Assembly (NCBI GenBank): GCA_027295505.1 | Contig: JAPUKU010000056.1 | Location: forward strand, 1-56,242 | DNA from: Acidobacteriota bacterium | GTDB taxonomy: Bacteria; Acidobacteriota; Polarisedimenticolia; JAPUKU01 | Reading direction: 5' to 3' | Length of the DNA: 56,242 bases | In this document: positions 2,753-46,064 of the stretch, piece by piece | Numbering within the stretch: position 1 is the stretch's first letter | Layout: every line of letters begins with the position of its first letter | The notes under the pieces: generated by a model | What the model was told of the DNA's origin: nothing | What the model saw: the letters and a program-made list of their open reading frames with translations, nothing else | Database searches by the model: none | Translations under genes and position numbers: made by a program

Positions 2753-8230
<5,478 letters not shown>

Positions 8231-39977: not shown

Positions 39978-40799
39978 TCAGGGCTGCAGAGGAACAGTTT
40001 GTATGACGTACCCGCCCGCCGCGGGCATGACCTCGATAGTGTTGTTCAGGCCGCGCACACCGCTCACGATGCCGACCACTTTCTCGGCCACCAGCCGATC
40101 GAAAACTCGCGGCACCTGCCCGGACAGCGTCACCACCCCGTTCTCGACCCTGACCAGTATGTCCCCCTCAATCGGGTACTGGCGTCGATTCTCAATCAGT
40201 TCGATCAGGCGCACGCGCATGCGCGTGTCATCGAGGTTGGCGTCACTCATCGCCATGAGCTGATTGTCCAGTCCCTGCAAGCCTTCAACCTGAAGCGCCG
40301 CGTTGCGGGCCCGGGCGCGCTCGCTCGAGGTTCTCACGCGCCCGGCAAGAGTGGCCACTCCGTCCACAACCGTTACTTTCACACGCACCGAGCGCAAAGC
40401 TTTGTTCACTTCCCCGGCAACTTTCTCGGCAAGACGGTCATCTCCTCCCTTGAAGGGTTGGATGTCAATTTCATGCTCGAGGCCGAGGAGACCTCGCACT
40501 CTGGCGGCCTCGAGCAGCGCTTCATCGCGCCACTTCAGGTTCGGAGCCTGCCCCCGCAGGACCGCAATACCGTCCTGCACCTCAACCGAGAGCGACAGCA
40601 TGCGCACGTCCGGATCGGCGGAGAGCAAGCGGATCACCCGCCCGCGTAGGGCTGCATCCGCGGCACTGCGGGTGGGAGCCGGCTGCGCCGCCTGCTGGGT
40701 CTGGCTGTCGGCCGCACGGCCAGCGGGCGCGACCACCACGAGCGCGAGCGCACAGGCGATGCAGGCCAGCTTCGTTCCAGTAGTTTCGAACTTCTTCAT
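39978..40799 (-). CDS. periplasmic BON-domain protein (second of a pair)
   Basis: 273 residues with a signal peptide (LACIACALALVVVAPAGRAA). Three BON domains follow (DGIAVLRGQ, DGVATLAGRV, NGVVTLSGQV are the recurring strand-turn-strand cores). BON domains bind membranes or phospholipids in OsmY-type proteins. It shares its three-domain plan with the gene just upstream, which suggests tandem duplication. ATG 40799 is preceded by GGAGGGG. It lies 10 nt after the upstream gene. Confidence 0.82.
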   Translation of the reverse strand: MKKFETTGTKLACIACALALVVVAPAGRAADSQTQQAAQPAPTRSAADAALRGRVIRLLSADPDVRMLSLSVEVQDGIAVLRGQAPNLKWRDEALLEAARVRGLLGLEHEIDIQPFKGGDDRLAEKVAGEVNKALRSVRVKVTVVDGVATLAGRVRTSSERARARNAALQVEGLQGLDNQLMAMSDANLDDTRMRVRLIELIENRRQYPIEGDILVRVENGVVTLSGQVPRVFDRLVAEKVVGIVSGVRGLNNTIEVMPAAGGYVIQTVPLQP

Positions 40800-40809
40800 C
40801 CGTCCCCTC

Positions 40810-41676
40810 CTACTCTTCCACCTCATCTTCGGGCGTCTCCGGATCGCTCTGAAGAGGCCTCACCGTTCCCGCCGTTTCGTCACCCCGGGGAGCGTGGGCC
40901 GATCGGATGCGCGACCTCGGCACCACCTTGATCAGGTTCTGCACGCTCAGAACACCACCCACGTACCACGCCAGCTGCTCAGCATCCAGCCGATCGATGA
41001 CCCGCTGCACCTCTCCTTCCAGGATGGCGATCCGGTCCCGCACTCGGGCTGAGACCTGGCCCTGGATCGGGAACCTCAAACGATCTCCCAGCAGGTCTCG
41101 AATCTGATCCTGCACCAGACCGTCACTCGCGTCTTGCCCCCCTCGCACCCGCAGCCTCAGATCCACACCCCGCACGCCCTCGACCCGCCGCGCCGCCTCC
41201 AGGGCCAGCAGACGCTGCCCCGCCGAACGGACCTCGCCCTCGATGACCGCCCTGCCCTCCTTCACGTCAATTCGCAGCTCGAGCCGCTCCAGCACCGGGA
41301 AGCGCTCTATTTCTTCCTCCACATACCCCCGCAGCTCTGAATCGGTAGCCATCCCTGCGGGGACCTCGAGCGCACTCTGTAGATCGACCAGGCCCCGAAC
41401 TCCAGCAACGGCGCGGCGCGCCATCTCGGCTTGCTCCAACGAGTTAACGCTTCCCTTCAGAAGCCCAATCCCTGACCGTATGCTGACCTCAATCGGCAAA
41501 CCTCGCAGTTGAACGCGCCGCTCCAGACGGGAGCGTGCCCTGAGCTCGAGCTCGGCGTCATCGTAGCCATCCTCGGCGGCGGCACACACCACCGGGAACA
41601 CGCCAGCCGCGATCATTACCCAGGCCAGAGCGATCCAAACCTGGCCGAGGCTTTGGCCCCTGATCATGCCTTCCAT
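40810..41676 (-). CDS. periplasmic BON-domain protein (first of a pair)
   Basis: 288 residues with a signal peptide (VWIALAWVMIAAGVFPVVCAA) and three BON domains (SGIGLLKGSV, EGRAVIEGEV, DRIAILEGEV). Paralogue of the next gene. Likely binds envelope lipids or stabilises the outer membrane. Starts at ATG 41676 or 41667; neither has a convincing ribosome site. The C-terminus is acidic (ETPEDEVEE). It begins 94 nt after the HPr-kinase-like gene and could be part of that transcript. Confidence 0.8.
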   Translation of the reverse strand: MEGMIRGQSLGQVWIALAWVMIAAGVFPVVCAAAEDGYDDAELELRARSRLERRVQLRGLPIEVSIRSGIGLLKGSVNSLEQAEMARRAVAGVRGLVDLQSALEVPAGMATDSELRGYVEEEIERFPVLERLELRIDVKEGRAVIEGEVRSAGQRLLALEAARRVEGVRGVDLRLRVRGGQDASDGLVQDQIRDLLGDRLRFPIQGQVSARVRDRIAILEGEVQRVIDRLDAEQLAWYVGGVLSVQNLIKVVPRSRIRSAHAPRGDETAGTVRPLQSDPETPEDEVEE

Positions 41677-41769
41677 TCTAGCCGAGTCTCGAGGGGGGAG
41701 GGGGAAGGCCGATGGGGCCCGCGCCCGGAAGGAATCACTTCGCACAGTGGCGGACCGGGCAGCCAGGTA

Positions 41770-42648
41770 TCAGGCGGGAATGCAGACGGGGAGGGGTCTC
41801 AGCTTCACGACGTTCTGATCGATGAGCTGTAGTGCGTCCTCCAGCGATCCGTACTCGAGCTCGGCGCACAGCGCCCCGCGCGTGAGGCGTTCGGCCATTG
41901 AAAGAAAATTGGCCGGATCGAACCGGTAGTGGTTGTATGAGGCACCTGCCAGCCGACGCACGGCCTCCACGCGCTCGAGCGATTGCAGCCGGGGCTTTGC
42001 CCCCTCGCGGTAGGTGGGAAACAACAGAGCCGTGCGGCAGGGTCCCACGGGACCGGAGTGGCAAAAAGCCGGCTGCACAATCATGTGATGAATGCGCCGC
42101 TGGGGTGACGTCAGAGGGCCCGGCCGGGCAGGCTCGAGCTCCGGGCCCGGTTCTGGAAAGAACGGAATGGATCCGAACTTCAGGTTGAGTGGTTTTGGAA
42201 ACTCCTGCACCTGAAGTGAGTCGGGGCTTACGATGAGCATCTCGTCGGTGACATAGAGAGCACCCCGTTTGATGAGCCCCGCCACGAGCGTTGTCTTGCC
42301 GCTGCGCGGGGGGGCCGGCAGCAGGATGAGCGTATCAGAGACAACCGCGGCTGCGGCGTGGAACAGTGCCGGCCCGTCGAGGAGCCGGACGAGCTGACCA
42401 TAGATGTTTGCCTCCAGGTACTCCAGGGCGTCGTCCAGGTCACGGCAGCGAAAGAGCCTGCCGCGGCCCTTTCGCACCACGAATCCTTTGTCGCGCTCGA
42501 CTTCGTAGTGCTGGTAACCCGGTGCCGCGCCTTTTCGGATGGGGAAGGGCTTCAGGATGCGGCGAAATTCGTCCTCGAATTCGGCGCACGTGCATCGCAG
42601 GCCGAACGGCTGCCCTGCCAGGCGCACGGTGTGCTCGACCGCTCTCAC
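41770..42648 (-). CDS. HPr-kinase-like protein of a RiPP cassette (ScmC-like)
   Basis: 292 residues. A P-loop (LLPAPPRSGKTTLVAGLIKRG) followed by YVTDEMLIVSPD fits the HPr kinase/phosphorylase fold; such proteins phosphorylate peptides in some RiPP pathways, and one occurs beside radical SAM genes in the SynChlorMet cassette (ScmC). Here it follows the radical SAM gene with a 4-nt GTGA overlap (42645-42648), so it is made with it. Real HprK contexts (HPr, PTS) are absent. The P-loop is altered to PAPPRSGKTT, and the usual Asp pair reads D-E. Function in peptide phosphorylation is inference. Confidence 0.75.
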   Translation of the reverse strand: MRAVEHTVRLAGQPFGLRCTCAEFEDEFRRILKPFPIRKGAAPGYQHYEVERDKGFVVRKGRGRLFRCRDLDDALEYLEANIYGQLVRLLDGPALFHAAAAVVSDTLILLPAPPRSGKTTLVAGLIKRGALYVTDEMLIVSPDSLQVQEFPKPLNLKFGSIPFFPEPGPELEPARPGPLTSPQRRIHHMIVQPAFCHSGPVGPCRTALLFPTYREGAKPRLQSLERVEAVRRLAGASYNHYRFDPANFLSMAERLTRGALCAELEYGSLEDALQLIDQNVVKLRPLPVCIPA

Positions 42649-44258
42649 GCGGAACGAAGCTCCATCAATCCCAGACCGGCCAGCTCTGCCAGCAACTGCC
42701 GCACATCACGGCGCACATCCGGCTCGGGGGCCCGGTACCGACGGGCGAGATTGCGGGCGATCCTGTCCAGGCTGCGCCGGCCGTTGCATTGCCCCACGAT
42801 CTCGGTGGCAACACGGTTCACGGCCAGGAGCGCTGAGTGCGCGCGGGAGTAGAGCAGGCCGAGCTCGCCGCAGCGCACCCAGCTCAGGCTTTCGCCGCGC
42901 ACTGGAATGCATCCGTCGACAGCGGCTGGAGAGGTGTCCGGCTCCGGTGCCCCTTCCCAGGTCCCTGTGTACGGATCATAAGCACAGGAAGGCGGCTTGG
43001 ATCGAAGCTGGCCCGTCTGCTTGTAGGCCAGCGCCCGGCAATCAAAACAACCGTAGCGAAATTCACAGTCGCGGCAGACGGGAATCTGCTCCTTGTCGAT
43101 CGACCAGAGATCCTGGAGCGAGGCGGTCTCGAGGACCTCCTGCAGCGGACGGCGCAGGACGTTGCCAACTCCGAGCTCTCTGGAAAATATGCAGGGGAAG
43201 ACGTCCCCAGTGGGAGCGACCGCTATCTTGCCGCTCCAGCAGGTCTGGCACCCCATGCTGCCGTTCGCCCCGGCCTGCATCGACTGTCCGCTAGGGGGCG
43301 AGGTCATGCGTGTCTGTCCTCCCGCCGGCACCAGCGAATCACCGCAGCCGCGCCCCGTGGGCCTCACCTCATCCACACCGATCGTGGCGCGATCCACACC
43401 GAGCGACGCCAGCAAGTCTTTGGCCGGCTCGACATCTTCCTGGTTCATCCGCATACGGATGATCCCTGCGCGGACCGCCACGCCGGCGGTGATTAGAGAG
43501 CGGATCGCCTCCACGGTCCGGCGAAATGATCCCGGCACCTGGGTGATCGCCTCATGGGTCTCCTCACAGTGGGAGTAGAACGAGACGGCGACATGCACGG
43601 CTCGCTCCCGCAGAAAGCGCACCCGGCTCTCGTTGAGGAGCGTCGCATTCGAGTAAACCTCGATCCATCGGTAACCCAGCGCGCGGGCTTCGTCGATCAG
43701 CCCCGGCAGATCGGGATCGAGCAGAGCCTCTCCACCGGTGAACTGCACCTTGCGGCAACCTGCCCTGGCGGCCTCCCGGAGGATCCGCAGGTGCTCGCCG
43801 GTGCGCATGGGTCCATCTTCCAGACCCGGTCCCGACCCCGCGTAGCAATGCACGCACCGCAGATTGCACCGTTCCGTCAACTCGAGCCACAGGAAATCGA
43901 GTTCCTTCCGGGATGGAGGTTGGACGGCTAGCGGAGCATCCTGGAGGATGGGAAGCCTCACGATGGAAGCCGGCCGCGGCTTCTCGTTCTCCTGCGGCTG
44001 TGGGGAAAGGACCAGCAGCGGGTGGTCGGAGAGAGCCCGAATGACGAACTGGCGCGAGCGGCTGGAGCGTACGCCAAGATCCCGCACGACGTGCGCGAGC
44101 GGCCGGCCTTTTAAGGCGTCACCGATGAGGCGCGTCATCCAGGCGTCGAGCGGCCAGATGCGCTTTGATTTCAGATCGTACAGTGCAGATCGTGCCGGAC
44201 CGCGCACATACCGCACATCCGGCCTGAGGGAAAGGTACGCCCCATTGCATTTCTTCAC
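42645..44258 (-). CDS. radical SAM/SPASM peptide maturase with PqqD-like ends
   Basis: 537-residue radical SAM enzyme. The CxxxCxxC cluster motif is CNLRCVHC near residue 130, GGEALL is the SAM-binding glycine motif, and a C-terminal SPASM domain binds more clusters (GCQTCWSGKI, DVFPC, CRDCEFRYGCFDC). The last 80 residues (LLAVNRVATEIVGQCNGRRS) and the first 90 resemble PqqD, the peptide-recognition (RRE) domain of RiPP maturases. It likely crosslinks or oxidises the Cys-containing peptide encoded just upstream. GTG 44258 overlaps the peptide TGA as GTGA; GTG 44273 (5 codons longer) is the alternative. Confidence 0.85.
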   Translation of the reverse strand: MKKCNGAYLSLRPDVRYVRGPARSALYDLKSKRIWPLDAWMTRLIGDALKGRPLAHVVRDLGVRSSRSRQFVIRALSDHPLLVLSPQPQENEKPRPASIVRLPILQDAPLAVQPPSRKELDFLWLELTERCNLRCVHCYAGSGPGLEDGPMRTGEHLRILREAARAGCRKVQFTGGEALLDPDLPGLIDEARALGYRWIEVYSNATLLNESRVRFLRERAVHVAVSFYSHCEETHEAITQVPGSFRRTVEAIRSLITAGVAVRAGIIRMRMNQEDVEPAKDLLASLGVDRATIGVDEVRPTGRGCGDSLVPAGGQTRMTSPPSGQSMQAGANGSMGCQTCWSGKIAVAPTGDVFPCIFSRELGVGNVLRRPLQEVLETASLQDLWSIDKEQIPVCRDCEFRYGCFDCRALAYKQTGQLRSKPPSCAYDPYTGTWEGAPEPDTSPAAVDGCIPVRGESLSWVRCGELGLLYSRAHSALLAVNRVATEIVGQCNGRRSLDRIARNLARRYRAPEPDVRRDVRQLLAELAGLGLMELRSA

Positions 44259-44485
44259 GTGTTGGGACCGCACGGTCCGCCTGTTGGATTGCAGCTCTTG
44301 TTTTCCGGGTTACAACCCGAAAAGGCTGCCGCGGCGCCCGGCGAAAGGAAAAAGGACGAGATGATCACGAGCGCCACGTAAGCCAGGCGCTTCAGAACCC
44401 GCTTGCGGTGGGCACCGCGTTTTTCCCTGTCGGCTGAACTGGCCTTGTCCAGTTTTGAATGTGGGTGTTGCTTCTTTCTGCTCAT
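44255..44485 (-). CDS. candidate RiPP precursor peptide, Cys/Gly/Pro-rich core
   Basis: 76 residues. A basic N-terminus (KKQHPHSKLDKASSADREKR, then HRKRVLKRL) and a hydrophobic stretch (YVALVIISSFFLSPGAAAA) precede a short C-terminal segment with three Cys: CNPENKSCNPTGGPCGPNT. The Cys are spaced 7 and 7 residues apart, each followed by N-P or G-P, as expected for a crosslinked core such as a sactipeptide or ranthipeptide. It is first in a coupled three-gene set with radical SAM and HPr-kinase-like genes, overlapping the maturase by 4 nt. No good ribosome site is visible. The membrane-like leader is unusual for RiPPs and may mean export before or during processing. It could instead be a small secreted protein. 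Confidence 0.6.
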   Translation of the reverse strand: MSRKKQHPHSKLDKASSADREKRGAHRKRVLKRLAYVALVIISSFFLSPGAAAAFSGCNPENKSCNPTGGPCGPNT

Positions 44486-44747: not shown

Positions 44748-46064
44748 ATGAAATTACAATATCTATCAATTATTTTATTGATATCCGTTTTGACGGCTCC
44801 GCCGTGTGCCGCTGCGCTCTCACGCCCTCAAGCTTTCGAACCCCTGGGCCCTCCCATCCACGAGGAATCGGCACAGCCTCATTTACAGAGAGCTCTGGCT
44901 CACTTCTTTAACGCCGAGTTCGAACCGGCTATTCGCGGTTTCCGGCGCGCTCTGTCCATCTCGCCCGATCTTGCAGAAGCCTACAAGTACCTGGGAGTCT
45001 GCTTTGTGGAGACCGGGAAAGTGGAAGACGCGATCAAGACCTATCAGCAGGGTCTGACCCATGGCGCCAGCGATCCGGAACTACATTACTTCCTCGGCCT
45101 GGCCCACCTGCGACTCGGCAACCTCGAGAAGACGGTCATGTCCTATCGGGAAGCACTGCGCCACGCTCCGAATTACCCCGATTTGTATTTCAACCTCGGA
45201 GTCGTGTACGACCTAATGGGGCAGTACGAAGACGAGATCGAGGCGTATCAACGCTACTCGGAACTCCGCCCGGATAGCCCCGAAGCGCACTATAACCTGG
45301 GCGTGGTCTACGGTCGGCTGGGGAAGACCGAGAAGGAGATTTTCCATTACCAGCGGGCCGTAGCGCTATCCCCGGAGTACGCGGACGCGTCCTATAACCT
45401 GGCGGTGGCTTACGGGCGCGCGGGACGATCGGATGAGGAGCTCGGCGCCTACCGTGCCGCCATCAAGGCGCAGCCCGACTTCGCGGAAGCCCACTATAAC
45501 CTGGCGATCGCTCGCAAGGAGCGGGGGGATCTCGAGGGGGCAGTCGACTCATACCTGGCGGCCATCGAAGCCAACCCGGGAGACGCACGGTCCCTGCACA
45601 ACCTGGGTGTGGTTTACGGCCGGCTGGGCCGGCTCGAAGATGAGATCGAGGCGTACCTTGCCGCCCTGAAGCTAAACCCAGACGATGCGGACACCCACTA
45701 CAACCTGGGAATCGCTTACAGCGACCTGGGGGACAACGCGGGTGCCGTGGACGAATACCGGGCGGCGCTACGCCTCTCACCGGACCACGCCAATGCCCGT
45801 CACAACATGGCGGTGGCGTACCAGCGCCTGGTCTACCGGGCCATGGCGGATGAGAACATGGAGCAGGTCCTCTCGCTCGTCCGTGAGATCGCAAGTCTGT
45901 CTGAACCGAGGACTCTTCCAACCCTGAGAGAGGCGTACCTCTGGGCTGGCAGACACGCCTCGCCCCACTCCAGCCCTGAGGAGCGCGCGGCCTACGATCA
46001 GCTCATGAATGAAGTAGTACAGGCACTTAAGGGGATGGGAGTTGCTGCACACCTCGATCAATAG
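44748..46064 (+). CDS. exported TPR-repeat protein
   Basis: 438 residues with an N-terminal signal peptide (LQYLSIILLISVLTAPPCAA). From about residue 45 to 360, eight or nine tetratricopeptide repeats read as AEAHYNLGVVYGRLG..EEAI..Y..AL (for example EAHYNLGVVYGRLGKTEKEI and LHNLGVVYGRLGRLEDEIEA). TPR arrays bind partner proteins; the location suggests an envelope scaffold. The C-terminus is helical. It starts in an AT-rich promoter region, and codons 1-12 are unusually AT-rich compared with the rest. Confidence 0.85.
   Translation: MKLQYLSIILLISVLTAPPCAAALSRPQAFEPLGPPIHEESAQPHLQRALAHFFNAEFEPAIRGFRRALSISPDLAEAYKYLGVCFVETGKVEDAIKTYQQGLTHGASDPELHYFLGLAHLRLGNLEKTVMSYREALRHAPNYPDLYFNLGVVYDLMGQYEDEIEAYQRYSELRPDSPEAHYNLGVVYGRLGKTEKEIFHYQRAVALSPEYADASYNLAVAYGRAGRSDEELGAYRAAIKAQPDFAEAHYNLAIARKERGDLEGAVDSYLAAIEANPGDARSLHNLGVVYGRLGRLEDEIEAYLAALKLNPDDADTHYNLGIAYSDLGDNAGAVDEYRAALRLSPDHANARHNMAVAYQRLVYRAMADENMEQVLSLVREIASLSEPRTLPTLREAYLWAGRHASPHSSPEERAAYDQLMNEVVQALKGMGVAAHLDQ

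Follow-up and report, generated by a model that had tools for sequence, protein, structure and literature searches.

Peptides modified by radical S-adenosylmethionine (SAM) enzymes, among the ribosomally synthesized and post-translationally modified peptides (RiPPs), are mostly viewed as small secreted or cofactor-like products of a leader and a core. An export signal as leader is described as rare among bacterial RiPPs (PMC12452194), and in lasso peptide clusters an HPr kinase homologue and then a nucleotidyltransferase act in sequence (PMC8498205). Here we describe a three-gene cassette in the 56,242-nucleotide contig JAPUKU010000056.1 (the window), which belongs to the 2.9-Mb draft genome of an Acidobacteriota bacterium (GCA_027295505.1). 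The cassette encodes, on the minus strand and in this order, a 76-aa peptide, a radical SAM/SPASM protein, and an HPr-kinase-like protein, and the leader of the peptide resembles an export signal, partly of the twin-arginine translocation (Tat) type. The nearest parallels are bufferins for the export-signal leader (PMC12452194) and paeninodin for the kinase (PMC8498205). All results come from sequence, and many of the relatives are metagenome-assembled drafts; on this basis the locus is probably an exported RiPP-like cassette, in which the peptide would be modified by the radical SAM/SPASM enzyme and the product would reside in the envelope.

The gene of the precursor-like peptide (MSRKKQHPHSKLDKASSADREKRGAHRKRVLKRLAYVALVIISSFFLSPGAAAAFSGCNPENKSCNPTGGPCGPNT) is an open reading frame at 44255..44485 on the minus strand, and the coordinates that an earlier note on this DNA had given for all three genes were confirmed. 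The peptide ends in SGCNPENKSCNPTGGPCGPNT, and its final 19 residues contain three cysteines, each followed by NP or GP, as that note had described. Compared with the peptides encoded next to related maturases (designated here by locus numbers), the recurring motif is Cys-Xaa-Pro (CxP), which goes beyond the mere presence of three cysteines. It stands mostly after a Tat/Sec-like signal or a [YW]xxP motif, the latter present in several leaders and comparable with the motif of lasso leaders. In the window the CxP core spans C58-T76 (CNPENKSCNPTGGPCGPNT, 44258..44314, minus strand), and all of its cysteines are in CxP units (3/3). The corresponding share of core cysteines is 8/10 in L075, 11/11 in L176, 6/6 in L178, 3/5 in L080, and 3/4 in L068. 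Three CxP units arise in 0.56% of shuffled window cores, a shuffle that ignores relatedness. The cores differ widely in length and in the number of cysteines (3 to 20), and repeats are present.

The relatives were found by a profile search of genome contigs; a search with the single window protein gave none. Nothing was found in the family and order of the window, for which its own genome was the sole representative searched, and in the class to which the window belongs the maturase relatives were generic radical SAM proteins only. The order of peptide, radical SAM protein with two ends resembling RiPP recognition elements (RREs), and HPr-kinase-like protein recurs in L075 and L176 (Latescibacterota) and in L077 and L080 (deltaproteobacterial metagenome-assembled genomes). 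The closest peptide is that of L080, where a 71-aa product ending in SRRKMLKKLAYLAPIVSSLVLSQNAAAAPSCPGQCPAQCSPLCTPICAPNK precedes a radical SAM protein with both end domains and an HPr-kinase-like protein. This peptide is 39% identical to the window peptide over its whole length, and the similarity covers both the Cys region and the signal-like part. L077 encodes a peptide rich in Cys, with RREFIKKLAWVTP, ahead of the radical SAM and HPr-kinase-like genes. In L075 and L176, a PqqD-like protein with a twin-arginine start is followed by a CxP peptide, the radical SAM protein, and the HPr-kinase-like protein, with an NTP_transf_5 gene upstream. The radical SAM gene is likewise followed by an HPr-kinase-like gene in L076, L177, and L079; the contig of L076 starts inside a CxP peptide, and those of L177 and L079 start inside the radical SAM gene. 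The earlier note had set the finding of related peptides beside homologous maturases in other genomes as a test of its RiPP-like cassette with a single radical SAM/SPASM maturase. Such peptides are present in L075, L077, L080, and L176, in other phyla, which supports that proposal and the membership of the locus in the broad class of radical SAM RiPPs, as far as sequence can tell.

This recurrence also bears on whether the 76-aa frame is a gene at all. The frame is short, lacks a match in Pfam or NCBIfam, and has no clear Shine-Dalgarno sequence at its start, as would be expected if it stood beside the maturase by chance. However, its full-length similarity to a peptide in the same position in L080, its GTGA coupling to the next gene, and the recurrence in other phyla largely refute a chance adjacency, which we now consider scarcely credible. 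The GTGA overlaps had been reported for every junction. At 42645..42648 (minus strand), GTGA indeed joins the radical SAM stop to the kinase start, but between the peptide and radical SAM genes the 4-nucleotide overlap is obtained only from an alternative GTG start at 44258. The longest radical SAM open reading frame begins at a GTG at 44273, encodes 542 aa, and shares 19 nucleotides with the peptide gene.

Further evidence for a partnership of the encoded proteins is provided by L178, where radical SAM, SPASM, PqqD, and P-loop HPr-kinase-like parts are found in a single open frame (L178:3636-5840), with a CxP peptide open reading frame at 5903-6208 in head-to-head orientation. Fusions of this kind are a good sign that the encoded parts act jointly. 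Two genomes from the phylum of the window show a different arrangement, with an HPr-kinase-like protein, a standalone PqqD-like protein, and a radical SAM/SPASM protein in a row (L071:3623-6010 and L072:3742-6222).

The link between the CxP unit and this enzyme is strengthened by a second group of related radical SAM proteins (L082-L112), in which 29 of 30 carry a C-terminal end of 3 to 14 CxP copies. None of 46 outgroup radical SAM/SPASM proteins has such a tail (Fisher p 4e-20, a test that ignores relatedness and whose p-value is inflated by near copies). The tail stands in place of the second half of the SPASM domain, which is missing. The query profile held two tail-bearing sequences, but no pattern fell in the tail, and three plasmid matches that a plain tblastn search with the window maturase gave, without the pattern step, are also CxP-tailed. 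The tail-bearing enzymes come from Actinomycetota, Pseudomonadota, Bacteroidota, Acidobacteriota, Parcubacteria, and others, with Mucilaginibacter (L083) and Actinophytocola (L099) among the sources. In a phylogenetic tree, they form one group with the cassette enzymes (98/93) and are nested within it as a single group (100/97), with the branch order among the cassette enzymes mostly unresolved. The natural reading of these sequences is that the CxP unit would be the substrate throughout, supplied by a separate chain (in trans) in the older forms and by the enzyme itself (in cis) in the younger form. Where annotated, the tail-bearing proteins (L082-L112 and L184-L186) carry just a radical SAM/SPASM label. 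The CxP motif thus offers a simple handle for mining genomes whose enzymes have only this annotation, and the tail-bearing clade is a ready test system, because catalyst and substrate may sit in one purified protein.

A third context is found in four deltaproteobacterial genomes (L180-L183), where the C-terminal PqqD domain is missing from the maturase relative and an HPr-kinase-like gene was not seen beside it. The neighboring protein (L180:3762-4286, L181:3577-4146, L182:1583-2110, and L183:816-1388) combines a twin-arginine signal with at least 14 CxP units and a C-terminal peptidoglycan-binding end. In L180 and L182, the two that were scanned, this end matches PG_binding_1 at 1e-13 or better. 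Short-motif repeats with a peptidoglycan-binding end are also a feature of the His-Xaa-Ser (Hxs) system, and there is a weak HxsA match to that end (2e-9). The window differs from the Hxs system, with its HxsB and HxsC, by having a CxP core in place of His-Xaa-Ser repeats, only one radical SAM enzyme, which is of another kind, and a peptide that has no peptidoglycan-binding domain and no HxsA match. Several relatives have a cysteine every four residues, like the Cys-Xaa-Xaa-Xaa repeat radical SAM targets of TIGR04117, but the best of them (L180) reaches 12.9 bits where 50 are required, and the window peptide gives no match.

The fusion of CxP units to the maturase or to a peptidoglycan-binding domain in relatives points to an envelope peptide and not to a typical small secreted natural product. 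It also bears on the possibility that the cassette yields a small redox cofactor or metallophore excised from the peptide, in the manner of pyrroloquinoline quinone (PQQ) or mycofactocin. The PqqE and mycofactocin maturase models of NCBIfam do score on the window maturase, and PqqD-like domains are present. In contrast, the cores vary in length and in cysteine number, contain repeats, and follow a signal sequence, some relatives carry the core within a peptidoglycan-binding protein, and no cofactor-type peptidase is present in the cassette, so that a cofactor product is very improbable.

In the maturase (42645..44258 from the start that gives the GTGA overlap, minus strand), Pfam recognizes a radical SAM domain (PF04055, 8.9e-22), a SPASM domain (43062..43241; PF13186, 1.8e-8), and a C-terminal PqqD domain. 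The CxxxCxxC cluster motif (C136, C140, and C143; 43845..43868) is invariant in an alignment of the relatives, as are the auxiliary-cluster cysteines of a full SPASM pattern (C345, C361, C400, C403, C409, C412, and C430). PqqD-like regions had been claimed for both ends of the protein. The C-terminal one (residues 452-541, 42651..42920) is supported by PF05402 (2e-10) and by profile matches to PqqD and to the solved lasso RREs TbiB1 and TfuB1. The N-terminal region (residues 13-90, 44004..44237) by itself has no Pfam match and no sequence match to solved RREs, but it is recovered by fold: in an AlphaFold model (mean predicted local distance difference test score, or pLDDT, of 81) residues 13-90 and 455-541 share a bbbb-HHH-b topology, and hhalign aligns the two regions with a probability of 88% (E 3e-6).

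The closest solved structures are the peptide maturases SkfB, CteB, SuiB, and PqqE. Like the window enzyme, the sactipeptide and ranthipeptide maturases (SkfB, CteB/SCIFF, and StsB) consist of radical SAM and SPASM domains with an N-terminal RRE-like domain, and they act next to a Cys-rich substrate. The window differs by the extra C-terminal PqqD domain, the CxP repeat core, the export signal as leader, and the kinase partner, and the scores are far under the curated cut-offs (StsB, 95.6 versus 625; SkfB, 57.6 versus 300). We consider it very probable that the 76-aa peptide is the substrate of this enzyme. Its signal-like N-terminal leader would be bound by one or both of the RRE/PqqD-like ends, and the maturase would form a substrate radical and modify the cysteines of the three CxP units in the cytoplasm. 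The nearness to SkfB and CteB makes thioether crosslinks the most likely chemistry, although by this analogy the chance that the cysteine modification is a thioether is about even. In the tails, the position directly after the Pro is often taken by Asp, Glu, Asn, or Ser, any of which could be a crosslink acceptor.

An unmodified peptide would also be conceivable, in the form of a Cys-rich secreted protein whose CxP repeats bind metal or form disulfides, with the radical SAM enzyme acting on another substrate. This is improbable, because CxP tracks this single maturase clade across phyla, either as an adjacent gene or as an enzyme tail, and because the genes are translationally coupled in both the window and L075.

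With modification by the maturase as the preferred reading, the leader deserves attention. The earlier note had seen a membrane-like helix here and suggested an exported product. To judge from its composition and alignment, the most fitting reading of this helix is a signal sequence of the Tat/Sec type, which supports export. The segment R27-A54 (RKRVLKRLAYVALVIISSFFLSPGAAAA, 44324..44407, minus strand) has a basic pair, then a hydrophobic stretch, and then an Ala-rich end like a signal peptidase site, and it aligns with SRRKMLKKLAYLAP, QRREFIKKLAWVTP, and SRRGFIK segments in the relatives. The product would leave by Tat or Sec through this segment, with a signal peptidase cut near AAAA/F; for this we rely on the signal-like sequence in the window together with the clear twin-arginine signals in relatives. 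Overall, we regard export of the product as likely. A Tat/Sec-type signal would also explain why the cassette has no dedicated exporter or peptidase. Tat translocates folded proteins, which would fit a modification prior to export. For RiPPs of multinuclear non-heme iron-dependent oxidative (MNIO) enzymes with Sec signals, the order of modification and export is an open question (PMC12452194). Bufferins and other MNIO-modified RiPPs resemble the window in having a Cys-containing precursor with an export signal as leader (PMC12452194), but the enzyme is an MNIO there and a radical SAM/SPASM protein here, and the signals of the cassette relatives are partly twin-arginine. Once exported, the product would act in the envelope, a role suggested by the peptidoglycan-binding relatives. 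The PqqD-like proteins of L075 (2163-2597) and L176 (721-1278) have a twin-arginine signal-like start themselves, which would place a peptide-binding domain outside the cytoplasm.

Several observations weigh against an exported CxP peptide modified by this enzyme. In the L077 peptide, 0 of 12 cysteines are in CxP units, so CxP is not common to all of the peptides. Different residues occupy the place between Cys and Pro, which makes a side-chain crosslink acceptor at this position unlikely. The window peptide has HRKRVLK, and thus Arg-Lys where relatives have twin Arg (clear in L077, L080, and L180-L183), and the Pro of the [YW]xxP motif is missing from it. No curated NCBIfam maturase model is reached at its cut-off by the window maturase. 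Finally, the kinase is absent beside the peptidoglycan-binding relatives and the tail-bearing enzymes, which indicates that it is unnecessary for the core reaction. The L077 peptide (L077:5521-5850), which occupies the cassette position, has a twin-arginine-like leader and a Cys- and Arg-rich core with PCRR repeats.

The third protein (292 aa; 41770..42648, minus strand) had been called HPr-kinase-like with a P-loop, and this assignment holds. It matches the HprK-related kinase A model TIGR04352 at 2.5e-24, with 85.9 bits where the curated cut-off is 200, and its profile matches HprK/P structures. The P-loop PAPPRSGKT lies at 42292..42318; its G117 and K118, as well as H97 before it, are invariant among the relatives. 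PEP carboxykinase and HprK/P have a common fold, and the predicted structure (pLDDT 77) bears a resemblance to PEP carboxykinase and a weak one to HprK/P, with moderate TM-scores. The protein would be a dedicated partner of the cassette, probably phosphorylating the peptide or readying it for attachment. This is the weakest step of the proposed mechanism, and an action on the peptide is put forward only tentatively.

Alternatively, instead of being a peptide kinase, the protein could be a regulator or a scaffold, or it could serve in the attachment of the peptide to the cell surface through a step on a sugar nucleotide or glycan. Phosphorylation at a conserved Ser or Thr is unsupported, since an alignment of the cores shows none. 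The paeninodin kinase uses a C-terminal Ser (PMC8498205), whereas the peptides here end in NT, NK, QC, PK, AP, or RN. The cassettes of L075, L176, and L077 adjoin NTP_transf_5, PIG-L, or polysaccharide genes, and the sequential action of kinase homologue and nucleotidyltransferase in lasso clusters offers a precedent for such a step. On the other hand, no polysaccharide locus was seen among the genes flanking the window cassette, and an NTP_transf_5 gene, looked for beside it, was found instead at the end of another contig of the same genome. We judge that this alternative falls just short of an even chance.

The resemblance to lasso clusters (the paeninodin HPr kinase homologue and the pseudomycoidin nucleotidyltransferase) extends to a lasso-B1-related RRE, an HprK-like kinase, and, beside some cassettes, NTP_transf_5. 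However, the window has a radical SAM maturase and no C-terminal Ser in the core, and profiles run on the cassette and the scanned flanking genes detected no asparagine-synthetase-like cyclase and no B2 protease. The SynChlorMet and HprK-related kinase A systems of NCBIfam also bring together radical SAM/SPASM, PqqD-like, and HprK-like proteins, but SynChlorMet has two radical SAM proteins, ScmE and ScmF, where the window has one, and the window stays under both cut-offs (84.8 bits versus 400 for ScmE). By these cut-offs, the cassette is outside the SynChlorMet, HprK-related A, His-Xaa-Ser, and Cys-Xaa-Xaa-Xaa families, and from its gene content it is not a lasso cluster.

Together, the related cassettes in several distant phyla and the tail-bearing enzymes point to a family of modified surface peptides that is apparently undescribed, and whose enzymes fall outside every curated family. 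The open-access literature yielded no description of a CxP/radical SAM family or of fused precursors, which is weak evidence of absence. A broader and more speculative view, to which we give a rather low probability, is that of a multi-phylum family of radical-modified CxP domains that would leave the cell in folded form by the Tat route and become fixed in the envelope. The modified domain would occur in three ways: as a free peptide accompanied by a kinase, as in the window, within a peptidoglycan-binding protein, and as the tail of the maturase, an enzyme that would then act on its own chain. The free form would be attached to surface glycans by the kinase, together with a nucleotidyltransferase in some genomes.

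The surroundings of the cassette resemble an ordinary chromosome, with UvrA, pyruvate kinase, cysteine synthase, and others among the genes, as read from the sequences of the open reading frames. Two BON-domain proteins (39978-41745) are encoded on the same strand, 24 nucleotides behind the kinase gene, and may share an operon with it. Upstream of the cassette, a TPR-repeat protein with a signal-like start is encoded divergently at 44748-46064.

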